From Ulota crispa (Eukaryota; Streptophyta; Bryopsida; Orthotrichales; Orthotrichaceae), in contig OY987243.1 in the NCBI GenBank assembly GCA_963920765.1, positions 10,602,001 through 10,666,000 of the forward strand: DNA of 64,000 nucleotides, written 5' to 3'. This document shows, one piece after another, positions 2,452 through 55,945 of the stretch (position 1 is its first letter; each line of letters begins with the position of its first letter). Position numbers and translations under genes: made by a program. The notes under the pieces were generated by a model, which was given only the letters and a program-made list of their open reading frames with translations, did not search any database and was not told where the DNA came from.

Positions 2452-3387
2452 TTAACCCCTAAAGGACTGAGCCATTTTTTCAGTAAAAATCACTCAAAAC
2501 TGCCACTTGGGGGGTTAGTAAGAACGTAATTTTTTTTGAAAATTTGGGAAATTCAACTGTAGGATCTTGTCCTAGATTGGATTAGGTACTTGTGGAAAAA
2601 AAATCAGGTCATTTCGGATGCACATGAGTGAGATATTTACATTTAAAGTTAAAAGAAAAGTTTTTTTTCATGCTGCCGCAAAATTTCAGAAGCCTTTGAC
2701 CATTTGTACATGAAAATAATTGCTCTACACAACTTTGTGCTTTATTTTTCCCATGTAGGATATCAAGTTAGCTATGTGTGGGAGAATTTTCAAATCAATT
2801 GGAACTACACAACAGATACGAAAAATCAGTAAGTAAAAAAAAAGTAGAGAATGAGTAAAATCACTAAATTGTTGAGAATTTAATTATTAAAATGAAAAAT
2901 GCAAATCCCAACAGTCATAACGTTGTGATAAACAATCTACATCCTTTGGTTTTGTTTTTTTTTCAAAATAATAAAAATTGAGTAAAATAAAGGACTTCAA
3001 AGTTTATTTTAGAATAGAGATTCCATAAGTGCCTACAAACAAAAACTCCTCATAACTTTCATGTCATTGATTGAAATTGAATGATTTGAAGCTTCTCACC
3101 TATAAAAAAATCTAAAGAACCAATTTCAAATTTTAATTTAAAAAAAATTAAATTTTAAAAAAGTTTTTGGGCTGCCCGAGCGGGCAATCCTCCCTTGCTT
3201 TTCAGATTTTCATGCATAACTTCTTCAATAATTGTTGGAATGAGGAAAAAATTAGATGCCCACATAGATGTTTGAATTCCCCACCTTCAATAAAAGTTTC
3301 AAAAAATCACACAAAGTAGCTTATCCAAAGGTACATGCCCAAACTCCCACCTATCCCCCGAAGGGGCAACAATCCTTTAGGGGTTAA
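2452..3387. mobile_element. TTAA-flanked piggyBac-like element, family 1
   Basis: The element runs from TTAACCCCTAAAGGA at the left to TCCTTTAGGGGTTAA at 3373-3387, a 15-base terminal inverted repeat that includes the TTAA target. It is 936 bases with no open frame. Other copies lie at 26894 (left 220 bases), 42336 (mutated TTCA end) and inverted near 43330-43830. A TTAA target plus a terminus starting CCC is the signature of the piggyBac superfamily. Assignment to that superfamily is inference because no transposase is present. Confidence 0.7.
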
Positions 3388-3432
3388 TTGTAAACCATAA
3401 ATGCATGTGCAACGTTTGTGATTTGTACTACG

Positions 3433-3642
3433 GTGCATGACACTTATAACCAACAACTCCCAACTCAAGTGGTTAGCCTAAGGCTTTATCAAAAAAAAAT
3501 TATTCACAATTTGAGACCACTAAAATGAAGCTTAGGGTTTGTCCCACTTGATGATGGAATTACTTTTGAGTTAATGAATATATGTGTTGTACTTTAGTAT
3601 TTCTTGTTGGACCAATAGTAGTTGGTTATAAATGTCATGCAC
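3433..3642. mobile_element. short MITE, TIR GTGCATGAC, copy 1
   Basis: Terminal inverted repeats read GTGCATGACACTTATAACCA at the left and its complement at the right with one change. TACG occurs just outside both ends and may be the target duplication. A second copy lies at 9973-10161 with the same middle (AGGGTTTGTCCCACTTG). It has no coding capacity. Confidence 0.75.
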
Positions 3643-3954
3643 TACGATTTCCAAATAATTAAAAATACATGACCTAGCCTAGAAAAAATACTATGTGCAC
3701 AGTTGTGAAAGGGTTTCCTTCTAAAAACTGATATTGGATGAAGATTTTGTTATCTGTTCTTCAGTTGTTGAAAAGCTTCTACAAGATAAGGAGTCCTGAA
3801 AAGTAAAGTTGTCATAAAAGGCTGAGGAGGACCATGTATAAGGTCCTTTTTCACAAGTGCTGCCTGGAGTCCGAAGATTGAAAAACTTCCTCTAGTTACA
3901 ATTGGGAAAATTCATTTCATGCAATCTACTTACAGCATAAAGCAAGAAAGACCT

Positions 3955-4256
3955 AAGGTAGGAACACCCATAAGCGTCAGTGTTCCCATCACCGTCACCT
4001 CTAAAATCTTGGAAAATCTATGTAATGATAAGAATGTACAACATGTGAACATGAAGTCTTAAAAGTGGTTATGGGTGCAATGGCATTTTGCTTTTTAAAA
4101 CTTCACAATTTATTCTCACAGTATCCAAATAATACATTCGAAAGTGCAAACTTAGTTTTTTTCTGTTCCTAATAGGATCCCATAATTTGCTAATTGGTCA
4201 TTAATAGTCATCATGTTCAAAACCCTTAGTTTGATGTTTATGGTTGCTCCTACCTT
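3955..4256. mobile_element. MITE, TIR AAGGTAGGA, copy 1
   Basis: This 302-base element has ends AAGGTAGGAACACCCATAA and, in complement, AAGGTAGGAGCAACCATAA. A closely similar copy is at 40966-41279. Non-coding. Confidence 0.75.
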
Positions 4257-4730
4257 AACAATCATATGAGATGTTCTTTACAATTCTCAAGAAGTTGAAA
4301 CTCTTTACAAGTATAAGCAAGGTCTTAGGATAAAAGTTACAAAAAACATTTGAAGTTATAGTTTGTCAAAAAAAAGTTTTTGGTATTCAAAGTCAACAAC
4401 TATTTGACATTTTCAACCAAATATTTATTAATTTGTGGTGTCCTGCACTAAACATACCCGAAGCCCCTTCTAGATTGTAATATTTGCACTTGGGAAATCA
4501 GGGACACACATTGAGAAACAAAAAAACAAACAGCCGCTCCGAAACTCCTTTTTAGAGGCTTGGCAAATGACTCGATTGGGTCACTCTTATGTGTTGATTA
4601 TTTTGCGATAAGGGCAGAGCAGGACCAGTGATTGTTAAATGCTGAACAGAATTCAGCAGTTGTTGCTGTTTTTTATCGTTGAACAACTTGAGCAGAATTT
4701 AAGGAAGTAGTTTCTTTGGCATTTTAATGT
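4257..4730. other. AT-rich spacer, nothing recognised
   Basis: I see no open frame, RNA gene or repeat partner here. Confidence 0.4.
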
Positions 4731-5170
4731 AGGGATAAGTTGATAAGTACCCTTATATTTTGCAGTATTTTGATGGATATCCTAAACTTTTTGGAAACTG
4801 TAGGAATACCTTTGCAGGGTTCTAGAGAGGAGATAATCATCAATACAATACTTTTGTTTGTCACAAAATAATTTGTCTGCATGCGTGCGTCATAATGTGG
4901 TGCGGTTGCAAGATTGACCCAAGCTTCATGCTTGCATGCAAAGAACGCTATCTTGGCAACATGATGTACATGCTTACACTATTTGACAACAAACAAAAAG
5001 AAATTAACAAAACTATGGCCAAGGATGTATCCGCCAACATTGCAAGGATGTCATTTACTAAGCTCTTTGCAATCTTGACATTCTCAAGGGTGTCCTTGTA
5101 GTTTTCAGAAAATCAAGGGTGTTCATCAAAACTTTACAAAATGCAAGAATATTTATCAAATTTTCCCTTT
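4731..5170. mobile_element. MITE pair member A, TIR near GGGAAAATTTGATA
   Basis: The right end is TATCAAATTTTCCC and the diverged left end reads GGGATAAGTTGATAAGTACCC. The same layout occurs at 6146-6580, with shared inner blocks such as AAAAGAAATT-ACAA-ACTATG. The 68-codon ORF inside is not supported in the other copy. Confidence 0.6.
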
Positions 5171-5173
5171 TAT

Positions 5174-5558
5174 ATAAGGGGATTGATGTATGTACACCTC
5201 GGGGGTTAGGTAAATTGACCAATCATCAACCAACTAGCGATCTTTGTGCCTAGCATCCTTGCACTTCCTTCCCCTCCCTTCCCAATTTGGAGTACGTCAC
5301 AAATGTATTTGTGGGGAGCTAAGGTGTAAAAGCCTAACCTTTTTTAGAAGCAAGGATAAAGGTAATAGTTTTGCTCCTTATTTTGGCGTTGGTCCAATTG
5401 TATCCTTCTTTGAGGTTCTAAACCAAATCAAGATTTTTGAATCCAAATATGGATTCAATTTTTTCAAATTCAACTTCTTAGTGGTAAATACTTAAAATTT
5501 ACCCCTAGTGTACTTTACATATAACAAACACCCGGTGTACATATGTAAATTCCCTTAT
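5174..5558. mobile_element. foldback element family D, copy 1
   Basis: Ends read ATAAGGGGATTGATGTATGT and, in complement, ATAAGGGAATTTACATATGT. The inner block (AATCCAAATATGGATTCAA region) matches copies at 11298-11695 and 28484-28805. Non-coding. Confidence 0.65.
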
Positions 5559-7062: not shown

Positions 7063-7687
7063 GGATCCACCACCGAACGCTCACTGTCCCAAAGAGTCTT
7101 CGCACCCAAGCCACCCTTGAGCCTTCCACCGCCGCCATCGCGTCCACCTCTCCTACACCATTCTACATTCCCATTCTTCTTCTTCACATCGCCGCAGCGT
7201 CGCACTCGCCCTTCCTCCCGCTTCATTCCTATTCACCCAAATTTCATAATCCATAGAACCTCCAAACAGCCAATTCCAGCTCCGAGGTGGACAACCATTT
7301 GCACACAAATCTGTACAATTTTGAAGACAAGGAGGCACCCCGTTGCCGTGTCTGTTGCGTTCGTGGAGAACAGCTCTCCAACTTAGAAACGCAAGCAGAT
7401 TCGGGGGTTTAGACGAGGATGGTAGCAACCGGCATTCGTGGTTTGTCGGTAGATCCGGGGTTTACCGATTGTTGTTGGAGCCGTGGTTGGGACGGCACGG
7501 GATACAGCTACACGCGCTTCTTCGGAGGAGGAGCGTGTTGTTGCTCGCGCGTGAATTCGAGCCACCTCGAATCCGGAATGGGTGAGTAGCGATCCCGGAA
7601 CTCTGTTTTAGGGCAAAATTAGGGTTACAAATTTGACGTTGAAGATTTATCAAGTGTTTCCAAGGAGAGTTTGATTCTGTTGCAACC
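7063..7687 (+). promoter_or_regulatory. promoter and long leader of the F-box gene
   Basis: A pyrimidine-rich stretch (7130-7210, CTTCTTCTTC type) is followed by about 480 GC-balanced bases leading to the start codon. Short upstream ATGs occur (for example 7419), so the leader may hold upstream ORFs. A telobox-like TTAGGGTTA lies at 7619-7627. No clear TATA box was found. The transcription start is inferred to lie near 7100-7200. Confidence 0.4.
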
Positions 7688-8806
7688 ATGGCGAAGCCAG
7701 TAGTGCGAGAATTACCACTCGACATTCTCATGCGTATTTTTGGGTTCCTGCCCATCCCGTCGGTGTGCCGCCTGCGCGCCGTTTGCAAGCAATGGAACGC
7801 CCTCATCGACTCGCCGGAGTTCGGGACGCTTTGCGCGCTAGCGCCGCGGCAGCGCTTCTACGTGCTCCTGACGCCGGGCAAGAGCCGCAACGGCGACGCC
7901 GGGTGGTGCGTCTTAGACCTAACAGACGAGCGATTCTACTCCCTCGACAGCAAGTACCTCGTCGACCATACAAAACAAGCAAACCCTAACCCTAATTCTC
8001 GTTACTCTTTAGACACGGTCGATGCAGCCGGCGGGTTGTTCCTCGTCTTATACCGCACATCGGATCTCACAGCGCTTTATGTCTGTCACCCCGTGACCAA
8101 AACCTTGAAAAGGTTGCCTCCTATTGTCGATACGGATCTCTTGTTACCCATGTTAACAGTGGATTACTCCACAAAGGCGTACAAGGTCGTCTTCTTCGGA
8201 GAGCGCATGCAAATGTACGACTCCGACGTGGAGAAGTGGATGCTGCTTGCGAATCCTCCGGACAACACCGACCCCGTGAGCTCCGCCGTTTGCAACAACA
8301 TTGTGTACACAGTTTTTGGGAATGGGAATGGTTCGTGTTACGTTTTGTTGACGTACAGCCTTGTCGACGACGTGTGGAGCAACAAGGGCATCGAATTGCC
8401 GCAGAGCCTTTCGTTTGTGCAGCTCGTGGTGTGCAGTGGCGAGGTTTACATTGTTGCAGGCTCCCGCATGCGGTGCTTCTGTGGGGAAGAGGAGACGTGT
8501 TTGAAATCCGGTATCACCATTTCCAAGGTGCTGCCGTCTCCTAAAGTGCCCGTTCGAGTGGCTCATATGCCGGAAACTTGGCATTCGTTGCTGTATCCCA
8601 CATGCTTGGCTTGGAATAATTGTCAAGGGATGCCGAGCTTTCTTGCTGTGGCGTCTGAAGGAGCCATTGTGTTTACTTCCAGCAGTGGAAGATCAGTTGT
8701 GTATGATTTCGCCAGAGCCTCATGGCGATCTGTGCAGAAACGTCACCAGTTCCACCGGACGCTTGCTGCAAGCTCCACTACTCTTAATCCTGGGTTCCTG
8801 CTCTAA
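7688..8806 (+). CDS. F-box protein, intronless
   Basis: A single open frame of 372 residues starts at an ATG in good plant context (CAACCATGGCG). Residues 6-46 form an F-box: ELPLDILMRIFGFLP, then the conserved VCRLRAVCKQWNALI helix. The rest (about 50-372) lacks clear kelch repeats but has the beta-rich, tryptophan-spaced look of F-box-associated or degenerate kelch propeller domains. Such proteins bind SKP1 through the F-box and hold a substrate for the SCF ubiquitin ligase in cytosol or nucleus; the substrate cannot be read. Length fits intronless plant F-box/kelch proteins. AACCCTAACCCTAA at about 7982-7995 inside the frame is telomere-like and encodes alternating Asn-Pro. Both flanks are transposon-rich, but the gene is intact. 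Confidence 0.9.
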   Translation: MAKPVVRELPLDILMRIFGFLPIPSVCRLRAVCKQWNALIDSPEFGTLCALAPRQRFYVLLTPGKSRNGDAGWCVLDLTDERFYSLDSKYLVDHTKQANPNPNSRYSLDTVDAAGGLFLVLYRTSDLTALYVCHPVTKTLKRLPPIVDTDLLLPMLTVDYSTKAYKVVFFGERMQMYDSDVEKWMLLANPPDNTDPVSSAVCNNIVYTVFGNGNGSCYVLLTYSLVDDVWSNKGIELPQSLSFVQLVVCSGEVYIVAGSRMRCFCGEEETCLKSGITISKVLPSPKVPVRVAHMPETWHSLLYPTCLAWNNCQGMPSFLAVASEGAIVFTSSSGRSVVYDFARASWRSVQKRHQFHRTLAASSTTLNPGFLL

Positions 8807-11695: not shown

Positions 11696-11784
11696 CTTTT
11701 TGTATTGGGAAACACCTGAAAATAGAAGAATGGGATTCTTTACCTTAGAATCGTAAGAAAGGATGAGATGAAGTAATGTGAAGC

Positions 11785-13379
11785 TCAGGGACCGAAAGCT
11801 GGTGGTTGCGCTTCAAGCTCATCCACGACATTTGAAACGAGGCTGTTGGCGTCTTGTTGCGGAGGTACCGCATGGGCGTCTTGCGATTGCGCTCTAACGT
11901 CTCTCGAGGAGCTGCTTCCCATGTTGGCCAGCAGCGTCCTCAAGCTCTCAAGCTCCGCAAGGGCATCGTCTCTCTCCTGCGCTAATTGCATGGCCACTTC
12001 TTCCAGAGCCTGTTTCTCGACCTCTGAACTGGCCTTGAGGTTTGCAGTCTCCCCCATAGCCACATTGCGCTCCTGCGCAAGTTGCAACGCCACTGTCTCC
12101 AGAGCCTGGTTCTGGGATTTGAGTTGCCCCACTTCTTTCTCGAGCATGGCCTCTATACCCTTCATTCGATCGCTCATGGACTCCACCGCAGACTTCAAGG
12201 CGTTCACCTCCGCCATCGCCGTCTCTCTCTCCTCTGCGATCTGCAACGCCACGGTTTCCAGGGCCTCTTTTTCAGCAAGAACTCGAGAGTACTCCGTTGT
12301 CCGCCGCTTCATCTCCTCCACTTGGTTCACTGCCGCGTCGCGCTCTCGAGCTAAGCGCTCCATAGCTGCAACAGTGCCTTTGTCCAGATCCTGTGAAAAC
12401 AACACGTACAAGGTCTTCTTCAACTGTAGATAGGTGAAGCCACATCAAATAAAAAATCAAAGTACGAAGATAAGAACTAGGGCTGCAAAAACTGCAACAA
12501 AGCCAACAAACCGAGGTTATCGAATGCAGAGTGAATGTATCCGTGAATCTTACCTGTGGCATTACCAAGCTAGTTCTCTGCACTCTCTTCTTCTCTCCTT
12601 CCTCCACAATCTCCAGAACGGCTCTAATGGGTGAAACCTGGAATTTTGTAGGGGCTCCGCGGATCACACGGCTGGCAATAAACACGGAGTACGCGATCCC
12701 CACTGCTTGCATGGCCTCGGGGACGACGGGTAAAACCTCCAGGGACGTGAGTAAAGCTCCGGAGAGAAAGACGCTCGCAACTGCAACACCGCCAAATAAC
12801 GTCAGGTTGGCCGCTCCTTGCTTTTCCAACTGCCGCTTGGCTTCCTGTAATGATTCTGTCACTGTCGTTCTGTCAAACCGCGCCCTCGCAGCTTTCACCG
12901 TTCCCTTGACGTCCTCAGAGGTGAGATCTCCCAGAGGCTTCGCTGCCGCAGTTGCGTCCTCATTTTGTTTGGATTGCAGCGGCAGGTTCAATTCTTGACG
13001 CTTCTTCACGTTCACGTTCACCTCCTCTTCCTGGATGGCAGATCGTACTTGCAATCGCAATCTTCTTTGTTGTGCACGGCCACAACGAATCTAGCGAAAT
13101 TTCAAAGGCTCCCTTTAGAAAAAAACGAGTACATATAGAAACAGAAAAAACTCGAGAAATGAACCCTCCTGAGTTGTCTTCCAAGGTAGACAGGCTCCAA
13201 ACTAAAACGAAAGCTAACGTGCAAGCAATGGTCATGGAAAAGGAGTGGTCAGTGTAACATGAGAAGACGAAGTGAACCTGCTGAACGCGATCAACGTTGC
13301 AGAAGTGCAAAGATGAGAGCTGCGAGGTGCACGCAGAAGCACGCTCAGGTGGTGCACACCATCTTGAAATCGACGCCAT
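11785..13379 (-). CDS. chloroplast CAAD/CURT1-like membrane protein with coiled-coil tail
   Basis: Three exons on the minus strand (13379-13278, 13090-12554, 12390-11785) join in phase to 1245 nt, or 414 residues. Residues 1 to about 50 are Ser/Arg-rich with few acids, like a chloroplast transit peptide ending near QVRSA. Residues 128-152 and 157-177 are two hydrophobic segments joined by a Pro-containing turn (SLEVLPVVPEAMQAVGIAYS), which resembles the CAAD membrane hairpin of CURT1 thylakoid-curvature proteins. Residues 214-414 are a heptad coiled coil with repeats of the form ALETVALQLAQER. CURT1 proteins are usually about 160 residues, so the long coiled coil is unusual. The first donor (CAG|GTTCAC) is weak; the second intron has GTAAGA. 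CAAD membership is my reading; the gene model is firmer. Confidence 0.65.
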
Positions 13380-15975: not shown

Positions 15976-16585
15976 TTAACCCTTACAAACCCTAGAAGAC
16001 CAAAAACGTCCCTTGTATAACAAAAAAATTGAAAAGAAGTTGTTTTTCATTTGATTTTTTTTTCAAAAGTGATCATAAACACATGGTCCATCATGGAAGG
16101 CAAAAAAAACCTCACCAAAACACAAATTGTGAGAAGATTCATAAACACAATGGTAGGTCCCAAGTTGCTCGTCTTGCAGTTTTTTATGAAGGCACCATGC
16201 ACTATTGGCATTTGCAACTTTTGGAAACAGTAGTGTAATGGTTGTGCACTTGCCACACCAATAGAAAGCACTATAGAGGTATTGTAGAGGGGCAATTACA
16301 ATGACAAGTTGGGGGTTTAGGGGGAGGTAAACCATTTTGTGAGCATAGAACGGTGAGCCTATGAGAGGTGAGCCAAGATTTTGTGGGTAGGAATCAATTT
16401 TGAACTTAAAATTAATGGAAAAACTTTAAAAACAACAATTTTTCAAGAGAAAAATGCATAGAATGTGCAATTATAAGGTTCTATATGCACATTTATAGGT
16501 GAAATTTAATATTTTAACAAAAAAATTATACTCATAGCTCATGAATCCTTGCTCACAATTTAGCATTCCCCAGTTTAGGGGTCAA
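15976..16585. mobile_element. TTAA-flanked piggyBac-like element, family 2
   Basis: The left end is TTAACCCTTACAAACCC; the right end GTTTAGGGGTCAA has one change from TTAA. Inner blocks (CATAAACACATGGTCCATCA; GGCACCATGCACTATTG) recur inverted at 54473-54839. 610 bases, non-coding. Confidence 0.65.
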
Positions 16586-16602: not shown

Positions 16603-17130
16603 ACATTGGCACGTATATTTTTAACCCACGCGAGTTTCTAACCCACGTACATTTTTAACTCTTGTAGTTATTTTACCCCGAGTGTATTTTCAACCCATTC
16701 AAATTTTTAACCTATATATACTTTTAACCCACACAATGTTTTAACCGCCGTAAATTTTTAACCCGCGCAATTTTCTAAGCCATGTATATTTATAACTCTT
16801 GCAGTTTTTTTAACTGATGTGTAGTTTAAAACCACGCAGTTTTTTTAACTAATGTGTATTTTAAAACCACGCAGTTTTTTTAACTAATGTGTATTTTAAA
16901 ACCACGCAGTTTTTAACCTACATATACTTTTAACCCACACAGTTTTTTAACCTACATATACTTTTAACTCGTGCAGTTTTCTAACCCATGTATATTTTTA
17001 ACTAACGCAGTTTTTTTCATCCACCTATATTTTTAACCCACGCAATTTTTTAACCCACACATATTTTTATTACCACCCAAGTTTTTGACCCTCACTAATT
17101 ACCCACACAATTTTTTTACCCACGCAGTAA
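16603..17130. repeat. degenerate minisatellite, 17-20 bp units
   Basis: About 25 to 28 units alternate between forms like TTTTTAACCCACGCAGT and TTTTTAACCCACATATA. They begin directly beyond the end of the TTAA element. Purely repetitive with no coding frame. Confidence 0.8.
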
Positions 17131-20345: not shown

Positions 20346-20425
20346 TTAACCCTTGAACGCCTCAGAGGACTAAAAGTGTCCTTGGTTCAGTGCATTTTTG
20401 AAAACCCTGGGTGTTCAGGGGTTAA
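20346..20425. mobile_element. 80-bp TTAA micro-element
   Basis: TTAACCCTTGAACGCC at the left and GGTGTTCAGGGGTTAA at the right, with a small hairpin AGGAC/GTCCT inside the left end. It looks like an internally deleted piggyBac-type element reduced to its two ends. It lies 350 bases beyond the stop codon of the TL17.4 gene. Confidence 0.6.
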
Positions 20426-20775: not shown

Positions 20776-23700
20776 TCAATAATCACACAGAAGAGTCTCA
20801 CGCGTTGAATTCCCGGTCACAGGGTTCACTCTGCAGAAAAGAACATAAAAAAGTTTAATCAAAAAGAAAAAAAAACAGCACCACATTCATCTATATTCTT
20901 TAAAATAGAAGAAAATGATAAGTGAACTGTGATAATAAGTGCTATGAAACGGAGGCAGTAGTCACAAACCCTTCAGCAACTTTGCACAATTCTTTGCGTT
21001 GATCATCTCTCCATCCTACTTCAGTGAAGTCTGTCAAAAACCAAACAATCCATTGTAGTCACTTGCTGTGCGCATTAATTCAGCAAAACAATATTTCGGA
21101 GAAAAAGCAAAACAGGAATTCAGAGAATATTAATGTGATGAGGTAAAGCACATGCCAATTTGGATATAAACGTACCAGCACCAGTGATGATAGTGTTTTT
21201 AAAGGACGTGTTGCCTGTAACCAAAGCTCCTTCCAGAATAGCATTGGTCAAGTTTGCCTGTGGACACGCAAGAAGGGCATCAAATAAAATGAAATGACCT
21301 TGTATAGCAAGTCCGTTGAGAAATCATTCAGTACAGTGGTGCTTGGATAAGGTCGACACTTTGAACGAGAAAAAAATGTTAACCATATCCAAACATTGAC
21401 CATAAACAAACACTCTGTTTGCATTCCTTCCCTTAGTTTTGGTGGTTGCAATTTTGGAGGTTGGAGGTGCTTTCTCACCAGTGTTTTTGGTACACTAACC
21501 AAACGCCTTTCTAACTAATGAGTAAAAATGGGCATTGACAAAAAGCAAGCGTTGATCATATGCAAGCACTTTACCTTAACTAAGCTCATAAGACACGCTT
21601 TGGGTAAGAGGGAGTGGGGCTGTGATCTTATCCAACCGTTTCTGTTACAAAGGTTGACGTTAACCAAGTACCAGCCAAATCTGTTGAGATCATATTTTTG
21701 CACCAGGTGTAATTTTTTTATGCAAATCCCAAAGTGAGAGGTTGACGAGCATGACTCATGACAGTAGGCAACCCCGTTTCCAAGTCAGTATAAGAGATAG
21801 GATTAGGTCTCTAAAAAGCACCTAATAATAATAACAAGCTCAGTGTGGAAGAGAGCCTACCTTCTGAACATTTGCTAGTGAGAAATCGCATCCTCTAAGG
21901 TCCGCATCAGTAAGATCAGCACCTGAAAGCACACACAAGCTCAATAAGCTCACAGCAACTCAGCCACAGAAATCAAATTTCTTACTTACTAACTATTTAT
22001 TTATGCAATAATGCACTTTACTTACACATCTTTTTGAGTTTATAATCTGGTTAAGGTGCACTTTGCCATGTTAAATGAGGGTCGATTGAAGCAAATACCG
22101 GTCAAGTCTGAGTCGAAGAAGCTGGCTCCAAACATTTTGGCCCCTTTGAAGTTTGCTTGCCGCAATATGGACTGCACGTTGATCCGACATGTCCCACATG
22201 TTAACCCTAAAAAAGGCATGGTTCAAAAATGACCGACTCTATTGTGAAAAGAGCATTTCAGATAGGTTCAAATTTTATACCCCCAGAATCAGTGAAGAAC
22301 ATCGCATGAGTTGGTGAAAAACTACAAAGAGGACAAGAAAACAATCCCTATCAAACTACTTGGACAGAAATGTGTCTCTTGAGGAGTCTAAAGAGAGTTT
22401 TGCATGGCAAAACAGAAACTTACCGTTTTGAAGTCTTGTTTAGTTAGAGTTAATCCACTGAAGTCTCTCCCCGTCAAGTCCTGGCCTCGTGTGACTTCTT
22501 GTCCGTATGGACCTCCACCCTAAAAGATGCAAAAAGCTAAAACCATCAGCATTGCAAGAACAAGCAGCTCCTCACAAGTTTCTCTACCTCGAACAGAAAA
22601 CCTAAAATCATGTCACTTGATCCTCAAGAAGTGAAAATTTCAAAAAAAAAAATCAATTCAAAATCATTCTAGTAATATCATGTCCATATAATATAAAACA
22701 TTAAAAAAATCATTCTCTGGAGTAAAATTCGTTCTCTAAAATCCTGCAGTAAAATGATTGATATATTCAGAAACATACCCGGAAGGCAAGTGCAGGGTCT
22801 GGAGCTGAGTAACACAATGAGGCTGCTGCAATGGCCACAAGGCTGGCACGTCCAAACCTTTGCAGCCCTGCAAATTCGTAATCTCGTTCTGTGTACTCCA
22901 CCTGAACCATAAAACCAAACAAAATAAGATAAAACAAAATGAACTACCAAACTAAAGAGTTACTTGGTCCTTCTCATCCTTGCTAAGGTAGAAGGCTCAT
23001 GAATGGACCACCTAAGGGCTGAAACTGAATTTTGGGGAGGTGAAACTTCTTGAACAATTTTTTTCAATAAATTTTTTCCTTGAAAGACAAGAGGAATTGG
23101 CATCTAACCCAAGTCGTTTCATATTTTTTGAAGCTTTGTGGAATTAGTTATGAAGTTTTGAAGTTGAAATGGCATAGGGCTCTAAAATGGTGCACCTCCT
23201 CAAATGTACATTATCTACACATTAGGGGGTTTCAAATATGACATTCCACACCAATTTTGTTCAAGTGAATTAATTTGTGCACAACCTGGCCAAGTCACTT
23301 TGTGAACGAGCCATGACGACCTCCTCGGGTCATGACTTCATATTCACCTGACCACTTGGTTCACAACCACTGGTTCACTGCTTATTTGAGATATTTGAAA
23401 CCCCCTATTATTGGAGAGCTATGAAAAACAGCATGTACAAACATAATACATTTAAGGAGATGCACCATTTTAGAACCTGCACGCTTTTAGAACCTCCTCA
23501 TATCTTACCCTGCGCTTTTGCAGAAGAAATTCATGCTTGGTATTAAGAATATGATTTCAAAAGATTTGGTTTCTAGCCTTAAAGATCTCTCTCCCCCAAA
23601 AAATCACACTCTAACATGTGAAAAATGCATAAAGCAACGCATGTGGTAGTCTCTAACTTTAACCCCTAAGCGCTACCTTGCACCCAGCCCAAATTCATGC

Positions 23701-24192
23701 AGTGTTGAACCTCATTGCAATCAATTTGGCACCTCAAATTCAAAAACAACATCTGGAAGAAGGGTTAGCCGTTGATATTGCACAAAGTTCAGGGTATGCA
23801 ACTGGATGAAAAATTTGGTAAGTTTTCATTGCGCAGATCAAAAAACTATAACAGCCAAAGACAACAAATTGTCAAATATTTGATAAGTTTTCACTGCACA
23901 GATCGAAAGACTATCACGATCAAAGACAACAAGTTGTCAAATATGGAGAGGCTAGATTTGGGGCAGGGGTTAATCCTCATCCCTAACTGACCTGTCTTGA
24001 TTTCTCATCAGCTTCTTTGTAATACAGATGCTCCTCAACAATTATGTTAGCGGTGGTGGCTATGGAAGGGCCCGAGGACGGTGGTTGTTGCGAGCTTGTG
24101 CACACAGTTGAAGGCGCAGCAGCAGCAGCAGACGTCGTCCCGGGAAACAGTGCCTTCAAAGCTGACAAGCAAATCGTAGGCAAGGCAGCCAT
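20776..24192 (-). CDS. thylakoid-lumen pentapeptide-repeat protein, TL17.4 type
   Basis: Eight exons on the minus strand (24192-23992, 22901-22779, 22519-22424, 22171-22099, 21922-21861, 21257-21176, 21030-20970, 20830-20776) join in phase to 753 nt, 250 residues. Residues 1-67 are Ser/Ala-rich transit peptide. Residues 86-106 are a hydrophobic thylakoid-transfer segment ending PALA, a lumenal peptidase site. From GGGPYGQEVTRGQDLTG onward come pentapeptide repeats of A(D/N)LXX type (DLTGADLTDADLRGCDF). The end, with VNPVTGNSTRETLLC, is the conserved tail of Arabidopsis At5g53490-type proteins. The repeats form a right-handed quadrilateral helix; the precise lumen role is unsettled. No twin-arginine is visible before the hydrophobic segment. 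Every junction is GT-AG. Intron 1 is largely transposon. Confidence 0.93.
22986..23509. mobile_element. element family H (TIR AGGTAGGAGGCTC-like), copy in intron 1
   Basis: It starts AGGTAGAAGGCTCATGAATG and shares about 250 bases with 26238-26516 and 53516-53830. The inner inverted blocks CTAAAATGGTGCACCTCC and GGAGATGCACCATTTTAG form a hairpin. It sits in intron 1 of the TL17.4 gene. Confidence 0.65.
23659..23973. mobile_element. TTAA-flanked element in intron 1
   Basis: Left TTAACCCCTAAGCGC, right GGGGCAGGGGTTAA. 315 bases. Its right TTAA ends 18 bases from the donor side of exon 1 (exon edge 23992). It contains a 65-base tandem duplication. Confidence 0.6.
23814..23943. repeat. 65-bp tandem duplication inside the TTAA element
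   Basis: Two units start at 23814 and 23879 (TTTGGTAAGTTTTCA and TTTGATAAGTTTTCA) at about 82% identity. Confidence 0.85.
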
Positions 24193-24703: not shown

Positions 24704-26236
24704 GGCCCGGTTCAGACTACAGTAGAGCTTCTCTAAACTGATATTGTCTAAGCTAATGTCTCCAATAAGTTAACCCTTAAAGGATCACGCGACCATATTT
24801 TGGTCGCTGGGAATGGTTTTTGGCCTGTAGGTTGAAATCGCTTAATAATTTGGAATTTGGTTTTGAAGTACGCATGTGATCACAAGAACTTTGTATCCAT
24901 CTAAAAAATAACAATGCAATTGGGTATGTGAGTTGATAAATAATGGTGTTCATATAGCATGGCTTCAGAATACGTATCCAATTTTTGTCAAAGATGGATC
25001 AAAGCAACAACACAATACATCAAGTATGCAAGAAGAATATCAATCTTCAATTGCACAATTCTAAAAAATTTCAAATTGCTTAAGAAATATGCTGATATTG
25101 TTTTCATATACGGTAGTAGTATAATTGTAGTATTTGAAGATGTACTGAAATGGTGTTGTCATTTTGGCTGTAAAATTTGTCATCCTACATTTAAGGCCAA
25201 TTCTTGATTGTTTCCACCAAATGGATTTTCCAGAATAATTATCAAATTTCTTGTAGAATTGTTTTAGAGTAGCAAAGAAAGTGGGATTTTTGACCCTTTT
25301 TGTCCACTTAGCTACACCTTGTAATTGCTATATTTGTCTATTTTGTGTGAAACTAGTCTTGTTGGAAAGGTGGGAAACCTTGCTTTTTAGAAATGTAAGG
25401 CTCTTTTCAATCAAAGCTTGCATGAAAGGTTAACATTCAAAACTAAACAAGAATGAAACACAAGAGATTTTCCACATACGGCTCACTCAATCATTATAAT
25501 ATTTCACCTCTAACGGTAGATCTAGCTGAAATTTTGGTGCTTTACAATAAACAAGGTGTACTTCCCATTTGTATGGTTGGATTATTGAAAATGGGTCCAT
25601 ATTTGAGTCAATTCCAAATTCAAAGCTTACAGCCCTTGTTTTCAGTGGATTTTGTGAAAAAAGGTGTGGTCGTTAAAGGATTAATATACTGCACTAATTT
25701 CAAAGTGAGCCGCATGATATAAACAAACAAAACTAAGTATGTAGCCTCACAAAAATTGATGTTAGTCATGGACAATTACAATTCATTAAGGCTTTGTTAT
25801 GTTCCCAATGCTACCCGTGGCAAGTAGACACTACCTTTGAGGTTAGTGTAATTACACTTCCAAAAATTCAATTAACGACCTGCGTAAACTAATATTGCCC
25901 ATGCAATTCCAACCATATTAGTTTACAGAGGTTCTATTGTAGCAACCAATTGAAATATCTCAAACGTGATTGGTTGAAATATGACTTTTTTTTGCTGCAC
26001 AGTTCAAACTGAGGGTTTGTCTGGTACTTTAACATCCATGTTCACCAACCAATATAGTCACATTAGCGGCCATGATAGTGAAGTTTTGGGGCTTGCTCCA
26101 AGGGTGGTACCAAACTTGTCCGCTAGAAGCACACTCTTGAATGACACACAATGACATGGAAAAGTTTTTGACAGACAAATCAACAGCAAGAGTGCCAGTT
26201 CTGTTGCTTCATTTGGTCGCTAGTTTGAATCAGACC
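24704..26236. mobile_element. PIF/Harbinger-type MITE with TAA target duplication
   Basis: Termini GGCCCGGTTCAGACTA and, in complement, GGTCTGATTCAAACTA. TAA lies on both sides (24701-24703, 26237-26239), and the uninterrupted family H copy at 22986 reads CCTAAGGG at this point, which shows the empty site. A 3-bp TAA duplication and G-rich ends are typical of PIF/Harbinger. Non-coding, 1533 bases, with another element nested inside. Confidence 0.75.
24770..25684. mobile_element. TTAA element nested in the PIF MITE
   Basis: The left end TTAACCCTTAAAGGATCA is followed by a hairpin GCGACC/GGTCGC with loop ATATTTT. The right end is probably GGTCGTTAAAGGATTAA at 25668-25684, with one weak position after the TTAA. 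The right boundary is less certain than the left. Confidence 0.5.
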
Positions 26237-26893: not shown

Positions 26894-27115
26894 TTAACCT
26901 CTGAAGGACCGAGTCCTTTTTTTTTGTGAAAATCACTCAAAAACTACTACATTTGGGGGAATGAGTAGAATAGTAGGAAAATATTTAAAAAAAATTGAAA
27001 CCCAACCGTAAAATCTTGCCCTAGACTATAGGAAGTACTTGTGGAAAAAATATTAGCTCATTTTAGATGTAGAGGAGTGAGATCTTGACATCTAAGTGAA
27101 TTTGTTTGTTATTTT
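26894..27115. mobile_element. partial family 1 TTAA element
   Basis: TTAACCTCTGAAGGACCGAG and about 220 following bases align with the left end of 2452-3387. The alignment ends just before the CACTA element. Confidence 0.6.
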
Positions 27116-42335: not shown

Positions 42336-43840
42336 TTCACCCCTAAAGGACCAAGTCCTTTTTTCTGCTAAAATCACTGAAATCTACCACTTCTAGTGGA
42401 TGAGTATGAAAGTAGATTTATTTATTTATTTATTTGGTTGGAAATCCAATTGTAGGATATTACCTTGGACTAGAGGAAATCCAACCATAGGATCTTCCCT
42501 TAGACTAGAAGAATTATTTCTTGAAAAAAATCTAATCATTATAGATGGAGAGGAGGGAGATATTTACATTTGAAGTGAGAGGAATTTTTTTTTCTCCGTG
42601 TTGTTATTCAATTTCAAATGCCTTTGACCTCTCTTACATGAAAAAAAATTCTATAACCAGAGCTATGCTTTTAATTAACCATGTAGGAGATCAAGCTAGG
42701 TATCTTTGGGAGATTTTTTAGAACAATTGGAACTAGACAACACATGGGGAAATAATAGTAAGTAAAAAGGAGTAGAGAATGATTGAAAACACCAAATTGT
42801 AAAGAATGTAATTATTGAAATGAAAAATGCAAATCCTAATGGTTATGATGTTGTAATAAACAATCTACTTCCTTTTGTTTTTGTTTTTTTTGTTTTTTTC
42901 CAAAATATTGAAAATTGAGTAAAATAAAGGACTTCAAAGCTTCTTTTAGAGTAGAGAATCCTTAATTGCCCGCACAAGAACTCCTCATGACTTTCATCTC
43001 ATGGATTGAAATGGAGTGCTTTAAAGCTCACTATGTACAAAATGACCTAAACAAACAATTTCAAATGGTTTATTTTAAATCGGAATTTTAAAGATGTTTT
43101 TTAGGCTGCCAGAGGGGCAATCCTCCCCAAATTTTCTTCAATTTGTGCATAACTCCTTCAATAAATGTTGGAATGAAGAAAAATTTAGATGCCCTTGTAG
43201 ATCTTTAAATTCCCCATCTTCAATAAAAACTTGCTTTCCATTTCTTGTACCACTATGTATTTATGATGAGGCTATGTATCTCTAAGTGTCATTAACAATT
43301 GGAAGAGTAAATTTTGTATTTTTTTTTGTTGAATTTGAGAAACATCGTGGGCAATTTAAAAAACATAGTGAACTTGTGTATTTGTAGTTAATTTTTAATA
43401 TATAAATTGGTTCTTTGTACTTTTATACAGATGGAAAGCTTTGAAGCATTCAATTTTGATCATTGACATGAAAGTCATGAAGAAATTATGTTTGCGGGCA
43501 CTTGTGGATGCTCTTCTATACAAAAAACTTTGAAGTCGTTTATTTCACTAAATTCTTAGTATTTTCATATTAAAAAATATATACCAAAAGATGTGGATTG
43601 TTTATATTTCTACCAGTGGGATTGGAATTTTTCATTTCCTTAGCTTAATTCTACATAATTCAATGCTTTGAATCATTTTGTATTGGTTTTCTCCCTTGTC
43701 TTTTATAGTTCCAAATGATTTCAGAATTTGGAAACTATGTACCCAACTACATTTGAAGATCAATTTATGTACATTAGTAATTTCAATGCAAAATGTAGCA
43801 AAATTGTTCATAACTAGTGGGAAAAATTTAGCTATGTCAT
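42336..43840. mobile_element. head-to-head family 1 copies
   Basis: 42336-43220 aligns with 2452-3300 in forward orientation (start TTCACCCCTAAAGGACC, one change in TTAA). 43330-43840 aligns with the inner part of the same family in reverse, for example the complement of ATGAAAGTCATGAAGAAATT. The TTAA end at the right is lost. Non-coding. Confidence 0.6.
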
Positions 43841-45600: not shown

Positions 45601-47061
45601 ATGGTGACTATGGAGAGAGATAGGGGTTTGGCATTGCTAGTGTTGTTCCTTGCACTCCAAAGTGCATTGAGTTGTATGTTAACCTTTATGGAGTCAGCAG
45701 AGTTTTGGAACAATATGTAAATTCTTGTAACAACCATTTTTTTATTAGGAAACAATTCAAGGCCACGGGTACGGTCAGTTCAGAGGTATAATAGGCAAGA
45801 AAGATTTGTACATAATCAATTATTGGGGACTTACACAAATAACATATTTAGGGAATGGTTGAGGGTACATAAAGAGACTTTCCACTTCTTGTGTCAAATT
45901 TTAAAGACAAGCCTTAGAAAACAAAATACTCCAATGAACTTAAGTATTGACGTTGAAACTAGAGTAGTAGTTACACTTGCTAGACTTGCAACTGGCAACT
46001 CATTATCTATGATTGGAGATTTGTATGGTATAGCTGAAAGTACTGCTTCTGTAATTGTACAAGAATGTTGCAAAGCCATAAAAGTTCATTTGCTACCTAT
46101 AGTGATAGAAAAATTGACTCCCAATAGTATGAAGAGAACATCTGCTGAGTTTGAGTCTTTGAAAGGTATACCTTATGTCATTGGTGCCATAGACGGTTCA
46201 CACATACCCATTTTAGCTCCCAATAAGGACTATCCGGAATACTATAATTGGAAAGGATTTTACTCAATTTTATTACAAGGAGTGGTGGATGCACAATGTA
46301 AGTTTTGGGATTTTGACTTTGGATGGGCGGGAAGCAATCATGATTGGACTGTATTCCAAAGAAGTGAATTAGAGAAAGAGGTTATGTGAAATAAGTATTT
46401 GTCTTATAGATTGATAGGAGATGCAACATATCCAATGAGGCCTTGGTTTTTGACCCCATTCAAAGGAGTAAGAGATGGACTATCGAGAGAGAAGGCACAT
46501 TGGAACTACATACAATCGAGTACAAGGATGGCAGTGGAGAGAGCTTTTGGATGTCTGATAGGGAGATGGAGAATTTTATTGAAACAAATAGATGTGCCAC
46601 TAAAGAATGTACCCGATCTAGTTACGGCATGCATTTGTTTACATAACTTGTGCATCATTCATTCTGATGGGTTCAATATGTGTTGGGCAAAAGAAGCACA
46701 TGAAAAACTTTGAGACTCTGCAAATCAAGACTTTGGGAACCTTTGTGTAGCAGAAAACCATGCTCAAACGATTCAAATTGCAAAGGAATCTATGAAGCAA
46801 ATGGAAATTATACTATTGCTAGCTACAATAGCCCTAGAGTCAACACTACTTCAATATGATGGCAAGGATCCAGAATATTTGGGAGGCAATGCAGAATCTT
46901 TACAATCAAGGAGAGAGAAAGAAGAAAATATCAAGAATTTGCTACAGCAAGCTACATTTGAACATGAACAACTAGCACGCAATTGCTATCAACTTCATGT
47001 AGAAAAAGAGAGGGACATAACCTTCACTAAGGCACATGTAGTGGAAAATGACTCTGATTAG
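45601..47061 (+). pseudogene. HARBI1-type DDE transposase, two internal stops
   Basis: From 45749 to 47061 one frame is open except for TGA at 46387-46389 and TGA at 46711-46713, before the final TAG. DDE_Tnp_4 marks appear in order: GAIDGSHIP (first Asp), VVDAQCKFWDFD then GWAGSNHD (second Asp region), GDATYPMRPWFLTPF, and MAVERAFGCLIGRWRIL with the final Glu. A helix-turn-helix-like stretch (MIGDLYGIAESTASVIVQE) precedes them. A short 5' piece at 45601-45717 may be exon 1 before an intron ending TTTATTAG at 45748, but its phase does not join cleanly. The last 115 codons form a Gln/Glu-rich helical tail. The enzyme class cuts and rejoins the element ends; this copy is dead unless the stops are read through. 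Confidence 0.85.
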
Positions 47062-50700: not shown

Positions 50701-53515
50701 ATTTCTTTTTATCTTTATTTTTTATTTTTTAATGTGTTCCATTATTTATAATGATTTGAATATTTATAAGTATTTATTTAACATGTGTTCAATAATGAAC
50801 CCAAAGAGTTTTAACTTTTTCAAAAAAACAAACATGTAACATTGTGAATTGGAGCTGCCTAGACTTTTGCAATAATAAAAATAGGTTGCTTATCAATTCA
50901 ATATTTTATATCTTATACTGTACAAGGTATACATCTCTTAAATTTTATCCACATATTTTAAATATAGTGAATTACAAGACCTTGTAGAGTTACAATAACA
51001 TTTGTCCAAAAAAATTATAAAATAAAAGATATTGCTACTTGCAATTGAAATGATAGGTTTGGAACAGTTTTGATGAAACCTTAGTCAAAAACCTTTAAGA
51101 GTCATAATAGTTGCATTTATATTTAGTATAAATTATATTGAAAATATATGGTAGAGGGCAGTTGCACATGTTAAAGACAATTTCTAGGTTTGTATGAAAA
51201 CAAAAGTACAAAGCAATTCCTCTATACTATTATATTATTCATTAAATATCTGGAAAAATTTATATTTTAAACCACAGTGAAGCTTTTGCTTTTGATATAA
51301 CACTTTATTTTAATTATTAATAAGCATAATTGTTGTAGTATTTTTTGGATAAAGCATTATAGTTGATGTAAGTTGTATTTGTGTAAGTACCAAGGTTTTT
51401 TTATATGAACCTTAATTACATATTTTAAATTTTTGCAAGTTTTAATTCTTGAGTAACATTCATTTACGATAGTCTATAATGTACAATTGTTGCTCTTTCT
51501 ATAATGTTTATATACGTGTATATATATTTTTTCATCTTAAGTTCTGAAGCACATTTTGATAATGAGGTTACGTATTCATAAATTCAATTGTCGTAAGCAT
51601 GAAATTATTTGTAAATGTATTGTTTTATCTTTTATGAAATCGATGTTCACATTCTTTTAGAAATTAAGAACTAGTAAGTTACATATATTTTAGTGAACAA
51701 AATAATTTAGTTATTTCTTAGATTTTGAAAACTATTATAATGTGAAAATGAATAAGTTTTATGTACAGATGTGCAAATTCCATTCATTTTGAATTTATAG
51801 TTTTTCATCGCTAATTTTGCATTATATCTTATAATTATTTCCTCACATGTCTACGTCACGTACTTCTATAATTGTCTGAACGTATTACTGTTTATCACAT
51901 GTTTATTGTATTTTTCGTTTTACAAATAATATTCATCATGCGTGACCAAGTACATTTTCATTTTCACAGTCATTTTTTTTCTTCTTGAAATCAAAGTTCT
52001 TTGAATTTTTGTCACATACTCCAAATGTTAGTCTCTTACTTATCACCATTCAAATTTCAAATAAAAGACTTCTTCATTGCACAAGAAGTCATGAATATGA
52101 TTAGGATATTGTCAATTCACTTAGCCTCCTTACATTGTAGAGTGGTCTAAACCTAGATGTGTTCTATAGTTGCTTCTGAAAATTTCTATGAGTGAACATA
52201 ACATCATATATTTATGAACTAGAAATTCATTAAAAAAATTGTAGGGAAGATTTTTAAAAGCCTTAAATTGATTAGAGTTATGTATATTATGTCCTTTAAT
52301 CTCATAATCTACATTAACCAACTTTTTAGATTTGACATGTGAAATGAGGAAATATTAAAAGAGTTCAAGTCACTTTTGCAATTTTAACACCCTTGTGTCC
52401 AAACACTATAATCTTTTGAACTATAAGTGATATTGTTGTAATTTCTTTTTCCATGTAATTTCTAACATGTTTAGTTTAAATTTGTACGGTTACAAAAAAA
52501 AAAAACTTTTTGAAATTTGTGAAAAGGTTGGTTGATTGTTCAATTTCATGGAAATTTCAAGAACTTGAAACAGGCTTTGGGCATTTAGGGGATTAAACCA
52601 TGTCCACTTTGATCTCCCATTGTTGCCAGAGACGTTGAAAATTTTCTTGTCCTTGTAAGGTAGTCGGCTCTAAAAGAGTTTGGTCAATTGAACCGAACAT
52701 GTAGGGACACAAAAACAGTTCATAGAGGTTCTTAAATGGGTCACATTTTTTTATGTTCAAAAATTGTACTTGTGCATGCACGGTTTTAGAACCTCAAGAG
52801 AGTGACATGAGCTACCATTAAGTGTGCTTATTGGCCATAATTGTGTTGAGTTTTGTCTTTCAATAAAATATAGATACATGTCATACTAAAATAAATGAAA
52901 ACGTGTTCTTGATCATGATTTGAGTATTAGAATATGAAATGGGTGCTTGCACGCTTTAAGAGCCTTATTGGAGCATTCTCAAGTTTGTAGTGGTTGCTTT
53001 TAGGACTTATGTGCTCCATTTACAAGCCATCTTTGCATCATAAATGTTACCACCTACGATCAAGAATAAATACCTATGCACCTTTTGCTTTGATAAATTG
53101 TAGTTAATTCATATACACTGAAGAAAATTTCAATTTAAATGGCCATAAAATTGTTTCTTCTTTAACTTTCCACCAAAAATCCAAATTACTAAACTGAATT
53201 TATTTTTGTGCAAACACCATCTTTCCCTTAGATAGTTGGTTTAGAAGCCGACTACTTTACTTCTTCGTCCGCAACTTTTCCCATTTGTCCTTGACATGCT
53301 TGGGCTCTCAAAAGAAATGACTCATTTGAACAAGACAAAATACAATTTTGTCACGAAATCTGTCCCAATCTTTTGGACGAAATGAAGCGTTCCTGGAGTC
53401 CACAACGTGTTCTTCCACAACCTCAATAAGCTTCTTTGTTGCCTCTTTGCTCCATGGCTGCAATCATCTCAACCACCATGACCTAGTTAGTGGTAAGTCA
53501 CCACCACGATCTCTG
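47796..53515. other. AT-rich gene-free stretch
   Basis: About 5.7 kb at roughly 75% A+T. A possible TTAA element end (GGCATTTAGGGGATTAA, 52580-52596) and a possible partner at 52385 are the only element signs. Confidence 0.45.
50338..50362. repeat. poly-T tract
   Basis: 25 consecutive T. Confidence 0.95.
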
Positions 53516-54472
53516 AGGTAGGAGGCTCATAAACTGTCCCTCTAGGGGCTGAAACTAGAACTTGGACAGGGGGAAAATTTCTGAATTATTTTACTATAAA
53601 TTTTTCTTGAAAGACAAGAGGAATTGACATCTAACACAAGTTGTTTCATATTTTTTGGAGCTTTGGGGACATAGTTATGAAATTTTAAGTTGAAATGCAT
53701 AGGGCTCTAAAACTATCCACCTCCTCAAATGTACTCCGTTTGTATATTTTTGAAACCTATAAAAATAGCATGTACAAACAATGTACATTTGAGAAAGTGG
53801 ACGGTTTTAGTGCCTGGTGTCATGATGTATATCACGGCATATAGTAAATATGTAAAATTTGATTAAATTATAGTTTGTGTGAGGTGTTGTACTCTTTTTC
53901 CTTTACTTGCGGTTTTATTTTTGGTTAACAAGGTTTCCCGAATAAGGTTTTGATGAGGCAACAACTGTTTAGAAGTGTTAATTCACTAAAGTCACTAAAG
54001 CTTATTTTAGAGAAATAATTCAAGAACCAATAGTAGAGAATGACTTTTACTTTATATCTTCTCTATTTAGTATATAAATGAAATTCTATTTGGAAGAAGG
54101 TGTCTTATCTTTTTAGATCAATTTATTATTCCATATATGTCTTTTCTTGTCTTGTCTTATCATATTTTGAGACCAATTTTTATTATTCCATGTATGTCTT
54201 GTGTTCTGAGACCATTGTTCTTAGAAACCAATTATTGTTTGATATATATTTGTGTTTGTTGAAACCAAAATATATTCTCCTATACTTTGATTCATATTTT
54301 CATGTGTTTTGCTCTCTTATGTTTTGATCATCTTGGAGAGTTTTTTTAATAGTGATTGTGTGTATACTGTTTTTCACTTGATTTTTTGAGACAGTTGCAA
54401 CCAGACACCTCGAGTATTCCCAAAGCGCGCTCCTCTCTATCTGACACCGGGTGGTTTCAGAGCCTCCTACCT
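53516..54472. mobile_element. element family H, copy with both ends
   Basis: Left AGGTAGGAGGCTCATAAAC and right, in complement, AGGTAGGAGGCTCTGAAAC give a 13-base perfect terminal inverted repeat. The first 310 bases match the other H copies. The rest is AT-rich with 55-60 base tandem-like repeats (54110-54290, GTATGTCTTGT motifs). No target duplication could be fixed. Confidence 0.7.
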
Positions 54473-54839
54473 TAACCATTGAAGGTCGGATAAGTGGCTG
54501 TACCTGCCTTCTACGGTGGTTTCTATAGTGGTGTGGTAGGTGTCCACCCATTAAAATCTTGTTCTATAAAGTTGCAAAAGTCAATAGTGCATGGTGCCCT
54601 CATGAAAGTTGCAAGAAGGGCAGTTTGGGACTTAACACCGTGTGTCTGAATATTATCAGAATTTGGATTACAAAAAAATATGAATGCATTTCATGAGGTA
54701 ATTTTTTGCCTTATATGATGGACCATGTGTTTATGGTCACTTTTGAAAAAATTAGATGAAAAAAAAAATTTTTTGAAGCACAAAATTCTTTTTTAGAGCC
54801 GGAGGACGTTTTTTGTCCTCCTTGACATTTAAGGGTTAA
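54473..54839. mobile_element. partial family 2 TTAA element, inverted
   Basis: In complement it matches 15976-16290. Its outer end is ACATTTAAGGGTTAA at 54825-54839, preceded by a perfect hairpin GGAGGAC/GTCCTCC. The inner end is cut off by the family H element at 54472. Confidence 0.7.
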
Positions 54840-55676
54840 CCCCTAAACTTGATCCATTTTGAAATGGTCAAACTTCATGTCAAAGCTCAATTTTGCATTT
54901 TAAAGTGTGTTCAAACAATGATTTTGAATTTTTATTACTTGAAACTATGAATGATATATCAGTGCAAGAATTTTCAATTTGTTTCATGAAAATTTGTAAT
55001 TGTTATCATTTTTTTTTAAATTAACATAAATAAGTTAAATAGCAAAAGAAATCCAAATTATTTGAATTTTTTCCAAGAGGTACAAGTAGCATTACAGATA
55101 AGTGTGAAAAAATTTCAATTGGTTATTTTATTTTTTACACCCAAAACAACCACAACAAATAATCTTAAGTCAAATTTGACTATGAAACCAAGTTTATCCT
55201 TATGTTTAATTTATTTATAAAGTTTTGATATTTTTCAATGGAAGACACATTCATTTTCTATTTATATTATTATTTTTGACAAGCTTGATTTTTTTAAAGC
55301 TAAATGTAGAAATAAAATCATATCAACTATAATATATATCAATAGAATATATATTAAAAAAATCTATAATTTGTACTATAAATGAATGGTAGAATGAGAA
55401 ACATAGTTTTGTAATTTAAATTTTAAATGCATTTGAAGAGTCAATGAAAAACACTCCATATTGTGTTATTTGGATTTTTACATTTGGAGTTTTCAGTGGC
55501 AATAAATCTTTCGATTTTTAACATTTTTCAAAGAAATCATATGAAATAGAAAGGAAACTTGTCAAGCTTCATTTTCTTAATTTGAACCACATACCAAAAA
55601 TTGACATTTTTGAAATTACAATCAGGGTTGACCAAGGCGCATCCACCTTTTGGATGCCCGGACCTTTAAGGGTTAA
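54836..55676. mobile_element. TTAA element sharing its target with the previous one
   Basis: Left TTAACCCCTAAACTTGATCC, right GGACCTTTAAGGGTTAA, 841 bases. Subterminal hairpins: CCATTT/AAATGG at the left, GCATCC/GGATGC at the right. The left TTAA (54836-54839) is also the right TTAA of the family 2 element. Confidence 0.65.
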
Positions 55677-55715
55677 CGGCTTGTTGCATTCCTCTCTTCA
55701 AAACTAAGTTATAAC

Positions 55716-55945
55716 TTAACCCTTGAACATCTCGGACGCCCTTTGTGGCTGTATGTATGGTTGTATGTCCAGACGTATTTGAGCTACTCTGAAGGTTTTC
55801 CGAAAAAAATTACGCACCCCATCATACAACCTTTTAATATGTATAGTTGTAACATTTAATTTCCAGCTGATTCAAACTTCTGAATATTGGTTGCAACCGT
55901 ATTTGCTACCATATCTCCAAAGCCCAAGGGTGCTTCAGGGGTTAA
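55716..55945. mobile_element. 230-bp TTAA element upstream of MBOAT gene
   Basis: TTAACCCTTGAACATC at the left and GGTGCTTCAGGGGTTAA at the right. It ends about 180 bases before the start codon of the MBOAT gene, so it probably lies in the promoter. Confidence 0.65.

Follow-up and report, generated by a model that had tools for sequence, protein, structure and literature searches.

A 64,000-nucleotide (nt) stretch of the moss Ulota crispa (the window; C2:10602001-10666000, in a genome of 274.8 Mb and 157 contigs) carries a series of TTAA-flanked elements that are, with a probability of about 0.95, non-autonomous members of a large and diverse piggyBac-superfamily population in the moss genome, that is, miniature inverted-repeat transposable elements (MITEs) ranging down to 80 bp. 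PiggyBac 'jumping genes' are best known from insects and bats. A preliminary description of the window had proposed piggyBac-type elements in this plant, and the proposal is borne out by three lines of evidence: copies ending exactly at the same tips, empty sites holding a single TTAA, and transposase genes lying between matching tips. The elements truly belong to the piggyBac superfamily; we have found no description of it in such a host or on such a scale.

Copy ends, target site and tips

First of all, five of the seven elements listed in the preliminary description are real insertions, with copies elsewhere in the genome that end at the same TTAA tips; copy counts here refer to about 40 scored candidates for each element. 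For the smallest element, 20346-20425, 34 of the 39 other scored copies cover exactly bases 1-80, and all 39 are 86-94% identical (82 first-look candidates). The copies of 24770-25684 are as sharply bounded, 27 of 39 running exactly from base 1 to 915 and the remainder falling at most 11 bases short, at 92-93% identity (2,407 first-look candidates), with three further copies in the transposase loci described below. Exact coverage of bases 1-230 is seen in 35 of the 42 other matches to 55716-55945 (1,968 first-look candidates). For 54836-55676, in a search whose query also included neighbouring elements (5,864 first-look candidates), 29 of 39 scored copies start and 33 end no more than 3 bases from the element's ends, at 78-84% identity. 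The fifth element, 2452-3387, has a copy of bases 1-934 in L021 (1816-883, 79.7% identity) and one of bases 1-864 in L022 (1105-1968, 80.2%). A sixth, 23659-23973, stands at its left end: 7 of 39 scored copies begin at base 1 and none extends past base 231, so the right end is unproven. The seventh, 15976-16585, did not hold up as one unit. Elsewhere, at C10:12942231-12942690, the 55716 family is present as a pair in opposite orientation, with matches that overlap by exactly four bases (12942459-12942462), as expected if the two had a single TTAA in common.

Second, the target site can be read directly for one insertion. The joined flanks of 24770-25684 align over the junction with 11 paralogous insert-free sites, among 40 of 670 candidates scored; seven of these were read (L035-L041), of which six hold a single intact TTAA and none a duplication. 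This insertion is the sole source of the empty-site evidence for a 4-bp TTAA target that is duplicated on insertion. No empty sites for 2452, 20346, 23659 or 54472-55676 (partial query) were found among 40 of 670 candidates scored, and a local search of 176 joined candidate pairs returned only the diverged, nested L027, the rest being self-overlaps or a gapped match. L027 holds a sister copy of 24770-25684 nested in a relative of L012, L022 and L023, and a join retaining one 4-bp copy aligns gap-free at its junction. The MITE at 24770-25684 is itself inserted in a further dispersed repeat, of which there are at least 11 copies, 75-92% alike.

The empty sites bear on a possible PIF/Harbinger origin of the elements, as MITEs of the Tourist type with a 3-bp TTA/TAA target and tips that resemble piggyBac by chance. 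The PIF/Harbinger superfamily is common in plants, and the window itself holds a Harbinger-type transposase fragment at 45721-46389 (PF13359, E 1e-9; PF13613 below threshold). The 24770-25684 empty sites, on the other hand, fit a single 4-bp TTAA and not a 3-bp TWA, and both the piggyBac transposases between inward-facing tips and the palindrome centred on bp 25 of the tips, described below, speak against it, leaving a Harbinger origin highly improbable.

Third, the tips are far more numerous than chance would give, provided that they are taken at sufficient length. The two strands of the window together hold 23 TTAACCC sites against 8.35 expected (standard deviation 2.95; highest of 100 shuffles 18), and 6 of the 23 (16621-17050) fall inside a 34-bp minisatellite at 16610-17091. 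The 17 outside it stay below the top shuffled count, so that the short motif carries little weight by itself. It might be supposed that the count is a by-product of A+T-rich, telomere-like or satellite DNA, in keeping with the minisatellite sites and with an excess of only about 2.8-fold. This we regard as next to impossible as a general account, given that longer tips number 28,650 against 4 in the control and that copies end exactly at the tips; the copy ends refute it for the five verified elements. It does hold for the six minisatellite sites, which belong to the tandem array and are ruled out as transposon ends.

Longer tips were scored over 15 positions, at 12 of 15 or more in the relaxed definition and 13 of 15 in the stricter one, in the window together with 20 PF13843-positive loci taken with their flanks (264 kb in all); L025, an inverted duplicate of L024, was left out of the stricter count and of the nearest-tip test described below. 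There are 17 relaxed tips in the window, and 86 in the window plus the 20 loci against 26 in reversed sequence; at 13 of 15, without L025, the numbers are 65 and 3. Genome-wide, a strict 20-base tip is found 8,413 times (reversed control 0), and the same tip preceded by any [AGT]NNN 9,787 times (control 1). Exact TTAA thus precedes 86% of these strict tips (8,413/9,787), a share whose true value is slightly lower, as the pattern omits tips with C four bases before. A general tip is found 28,650 times (14,359 + 14,291) against the 4 of the control, the equivalent of some 14,000 elements. Within the window exact tips undercount, there being a single exact match to the general tip beside at least five verified elements, but one window is an unsafe basis for extrapolating this undercount to the genome. 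The element tips begin CCC, both in the fetched loci and in the genome-wide general tip, as expected of the piggyBac superfamily; in beetles, CCCT is the commonest piggyBac tip start (accessible part of PMC12732532). As to the claim that the listed elements start TTAACCC and end GGGTTAA, it fits the seven pairs with the exception of two right ends, 16585 ending GGGGTCAA and 25684 ending AAGGATTAA. Their interiors had been said to share little sequence, which is only partly so: 15976 and 54472 are 72% alike across about 270 bp, and 2452 has relatives at 42336-43228 and 26894.

Transposase genes and large elements

A search for a piggyBac transposase had been proposed as a check. A profile search of the genome with PF13843 (DDE_Tnp_1_7) yields 120 matched stretches, with a best expectation value (E) of 1.3e-73 and none in 14 controls; some of the 120 are two pieces of one gene, and the search scored 116 of 528 first-look candidates, so that the unscored ones may add more. 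The L019 transposase is open over 476 codons and, compared with solved structures at E up to 0.01, matches only 6x67/6x68 (E 4e-20), which we take to be the Trichoplusia ni (T. ni) piggyBac transposase (the entry is labelled 'Transposase'), and the piggyBat structure 9c0f (E 6e-17). Four fixed motif patterns were applied to the 20 loci, namely three aspartate motifs (D-E, DN[FY]F and G[VI]D..DQ) and the cysteines of a cysteine-rich domain (CRD; C-x2-C...C-x2-C...C...C[FY]). All four are present in four loci, three in eight, two in seven and one in one. The full aspartate set is found in 7 of 20 (L011, L012, L017, L020, L021, L022 and L023), copies outside this set being decayed or not caught by the pattern; the third aspartate is replaced by asparagine in L019, and an earlier pattern set had found D1 in 10 and D3 in 13 of the 20 loci. 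A C-terminal CRD is predicted in 11 of the 20, one with an internal stop.

Tips can be assigned on both sides of the transposase in 11 of 20 loci, 5.0-7.5 kb apart. This depended on choosing the best pair, and a choice-free nearest-tip test was therefore made over 19 loci. At a score of 12/15, the nearest flanking tips point inward in 28 cases and outward in 3, and 11 of the 19 loci have an inward tip on each side; at 13/15 the figures are 24, 4 and 9 of 19. No tip lies within the transposase match. Of the three outward tips, those in L019 (at 1637) and L028 (at 910) sit on a TTAA common to an inward-facing end. The genes thus lie between inward-facing tips of the same kind as those of the window. 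This arrangement bears on whether another TTAA-targeting superfamily, Kolobok, moves the elements, with the nearby piggyBac genes incidental. Kolobok does target TTAA, and TTAA targeting alone is not diagnostic of piggyBac and has no power to single it out; against this stand the 28 inward and 3 outward tips around the piggyBac gene, their absence from the transposase match, and a palindrome at the piggyBac position, all of which make a Kolobok source very unlikely.

The large piggyBac-type elements also indicate when transposition occurred. L022 and L023 have 5,233 bp in common at 99.3%, in opposite orientation and with different flanks; their alignment stops on one side at a TTAA tip and on the other 17 bp before the L023 tip, which L022 lacks. 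L012, which is related to both, has tips at 1967 and 7712. Copies this similar point to productive transposition fairly recently. The preliminary description had inferred an active transposase source, and the two 5.2-kb copies at 99.3% carry that inference for the past only. Upstream of the transposase, the seven large elements inspected contain additional open frames of 198-539 codons that are partly common between elements, with no Pfam domain in the upstream frames of any of the seven.

Two further observations concern these genes. L024 (C10:671700-681699) and L025 (C10:780900-790899) form a 10-kb inverted duplication, 99.93% identical and about 109 kb apart, that includes a piggyBac transposase. 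A viral-contig scan with one transposase, whose reach was close relatives only, gave five pattern matches, none of them confirmed.

A palindrome near the tips and how the elements would move

In T. ni piggyBac, a palindrome within bp 17-33, the site of the C-terminal CRD, is present in both minimal ends (accessible text of PMC7351741). Such palindromes had already been spotted by eye in some of the moss tips, so that a palindrome scan of the tips was not blind. It finds at least five of six pairs around centre 25 in 17 of the 65 tips. The next-best centre reaches 4 tips, and 2,000 shuffles yield 0.25 on average and never more than 4; because tips within a family are interdependent, this comparison does not amount to a strict probability. 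Centre 25 leads all other centres when tips scoring at least 13, or at least 14, of 15 are taken, and comes second in the set of 20 tips with the full score of 15. Among 36 paired elements, the palindrome is found at one end in 15 and at both ends in one, and no second fixed palindrome position was found at the other end between bp 12 and 149. The palindromes vary by family (GACC/GGTC, GGAC/GTCC, CACC/GGTG, CATCC/GGATG), and families may be told apart by them; family-specific palindromes would explain shared tips with unlike interiors.

These features suggest the following mechanism. The larger relatives, 5.0-7.5 kb in length, carry a gene for a three-aspartate (DDD) transposase with a C-terminal CRD; the transposase would recognize the common tip CCCYTVANNGNCC, and its CRD the family-specific palindrome within bp 17-33 of one end. 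The enzyme would then excise the element and join it to a TTAA. Families that retain the same first bases and differ in palindromes and interiors would produce the pattern first noticed in the sequence. A more far-reaching proposal, which we hold tentatively and at a little under even odds, is that piggyBac has become a leading class of DNA transposon in this moss lineage, with some 14,000 or more elements in many families that have one catalytic tip in common and each a private, CRD-read palindrome at bp 17-33. If this is true, tip and palindrome would form a two-part address, each transposase mobilizing its own MITEs, down to minimal elements of 80 bp.

Several observations weigh against the main reading, in which the window elements are members of a piggyBac population. 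As regards the ends, 48 of 65 tips have fewer than five of six palindrome pairs and 20 of 36 paired elements are without a palindrome at either end. As regards the transposases, 110 of the 120 stretches contain an in-frame stop (introns not being allowed for), 9 of 20 loci are without a convincing pair of ends, and one of the inward tips counted above, L022 at 1105, belongs to a neighbouring MITE and not to the transposase element. The CRD figure of 11 of 20 comes from a corrected second pattern, a stricter, mis-spaced one having matched none of the 20. No MITE of the window could be tied to one transposase element, the matches in the 20 loci being other repeats or end pieces, and 15976-16585 fails as a unit. 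Finally, one of the seven empty sites reads CCAA instead of TTAA, and the diverged empty sites of the nested L027 insertion read AAAA or GAAA.

The window and comparison with known systems

The features of the window are collected in Table 1, including three that the preliminary description had missed (54472-54839, the degenerate copy 42336-43228 and the left end at 26894).

Table 1. Transposon-related features of the window, in window positions.
Feature	Positions	Strand	Remarks
piggyBac-type MITE	2452..3387	+	936 bp including both TTAA; near end-to-end copies in L021 and L022
Candidate left portion of a piggyBac-type element akin to 54472-54839	15976..16323	+	tip TTAACCCTTA; 72% to 54510-54777
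Miniature piggyBac-type element	20346..20425	+	80 bp (76 bp + TTAA)
Palindrome AGGAC-N7-GTCCT	20366..20382	+	bp 17-33 from left tip; 5/6 arm pairs at centre 25
Probable piggyBac-type element with internal 65-bp tandem duplication	23659..23973	+	left end supported, right end unproven
piggyBac-type MITE with paralogous empty sites	24770..25684	+	915 bp
Palindrome CGACCATATTTTGGTCG	24790..24806	+	bp 17-33 from left tip (CRD-site position in T. ni piggyBac); 6/6 arm pairs
Left end of a 2452-family element, remainder not delimited	26894..27095	+	tip TTAACCTCTGAAGGACC
Degenerate 2452-family copy	42336..43228	+	aligns with 2452-element bases 1-85 and 96-844 at 76%
piggyBac-type element	54472..54839	+	tips; left end not confirmed by copies
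piggyBac-type MITE	54836..55676	+	841 bp
Palindrome CATCCAAAAGGTGGATG	55640..55656	-	bp 17-33 from right tip; 6/6 arm pairs
piggyBac-type MITE	55716..55945	+	230 bp

The tandem repeat inside the 23659-23973 element occupies 23809-23944, and the left end at 26894 is 73.5% alike to 2452-2646 and 79% to L026. For 54472-54839, a copy in L014 (532-809, 79%) stops at the same right tip, whose palindrome has 5/6 pairs, and its right TTAA (54836-54839) doubles as the left TTAA of 54836-55676. The candidate 15976-16585 was rejected as a single unit: all 40 other scored matches are confined to its bases 341-607 and none spans it. Since what matches is an independent repeat some 250 bp long, neither the unit nor a right end at 16585 is supported. 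That dispersed repeat, at 16324-16571, is 84-89% alike in the 40 scored genomic matches; its ends are GTGAGC-like and do not resemble the neighbouring piggyBac tips. The 34-bp unit of the neighbouring minisatellite at 16610-17091 is rich in TTTTAACCCACGCA.

Other genes of the window include an open F-box protein frame at 7643-8806 (387 codons stop to stop) and, on the minus strand at 12272-13090, a frame that matches the CAAD domain at a score under the Pfam threshold, which would point to a plastid CURT1-like protein. Outside the window, contig C157 (112.5 kb) contains two uninterrupted full-length matches to PsaA/PsaB, fragments of which are also present in large contigs, as befits a plant genome. 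Among solved structures the PsaB protein is closest to PDB chains 7ksq, 6l35 and 8htu (1681 bits), from Physcomitrium patens, followed by 9lut (1643) and 7wfd (1603), consistent with a moss.

Compared with T. ni piggyBac, the moss elements have a homologous transposase (6x67/6x68, aligned over L019 residues 63-369) and the same TTAA target, and appear from sequence to have both the palindrome within bp 17-33 and the C-terminal CRD. They differ in their length of 5.0-7.5 kb, in the further open frame upstream of the transposase and in their land-plant host; in addition, the palindrome occurs in both minimal ends of the T. ni element, whereas the paired moss elements in which it is found have it at one end in 15 cases and at both in 1. 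PiggyBat of Myotis lucifugus (9c0f) likewise has a homologous transposase (E 6e-17, residues 44-434) but a mammalian host, the comparison here covering the transposase.

Published records of PiggyBac in land plants, cited here from the accessible portions of each source, are classification entries or tallies, and none documents transposases lying between matching tips, any empty sites or comparable tip numbers. The preliminary description took piggyBac to be unrecorded from flowering plants, which is contradicted by a review in which PiggyBac is among seven superfamilies found for angiosperm MITEs (PMC10004981). In a survey covering 257 species, 80 of them land plants, PiggyBac is among the superfamilies present in all taxonomic groups (PMC4438587); a repeat table for C-Fern gives 1,230 PiggyBac copies covering 122 kb (PMC6890710), and PiggyBac is named among plant superfamilies elsewhere (PMC10794571). 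Another source places piggyBac in animals, fungi and protists and occasionally in plants, for example red algae (PMC12732532). For mosses, the accessible text on Physcomitrium names Mariner elements as transcribed DNA transposons and does not name piggyBac (PMC7466625), and that of a moss genome paper contains only the word 'piggybacking' (PMC10619864). A search that left most subscription literature uncovered gave us no report of native moss piggyBac, which does not show its absence from print.

The anatomy of these elements is near textbook. What surprises is how many there are, that transposases are linked to them in a moss, that some are large and autonomous, and that one is a miniature of only 80 bp. 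As the tens of thousands of tips and the accompanying transposase genes show, piggyBac can become abundant in a land plant, and plant repeat annotation should therefore look for it. Furthermore, the many natural variants of the ends offer material for asking how a piggyBac transposase recognizes its ends, and the natural elements of 80 bp are candidate minimal substrates.

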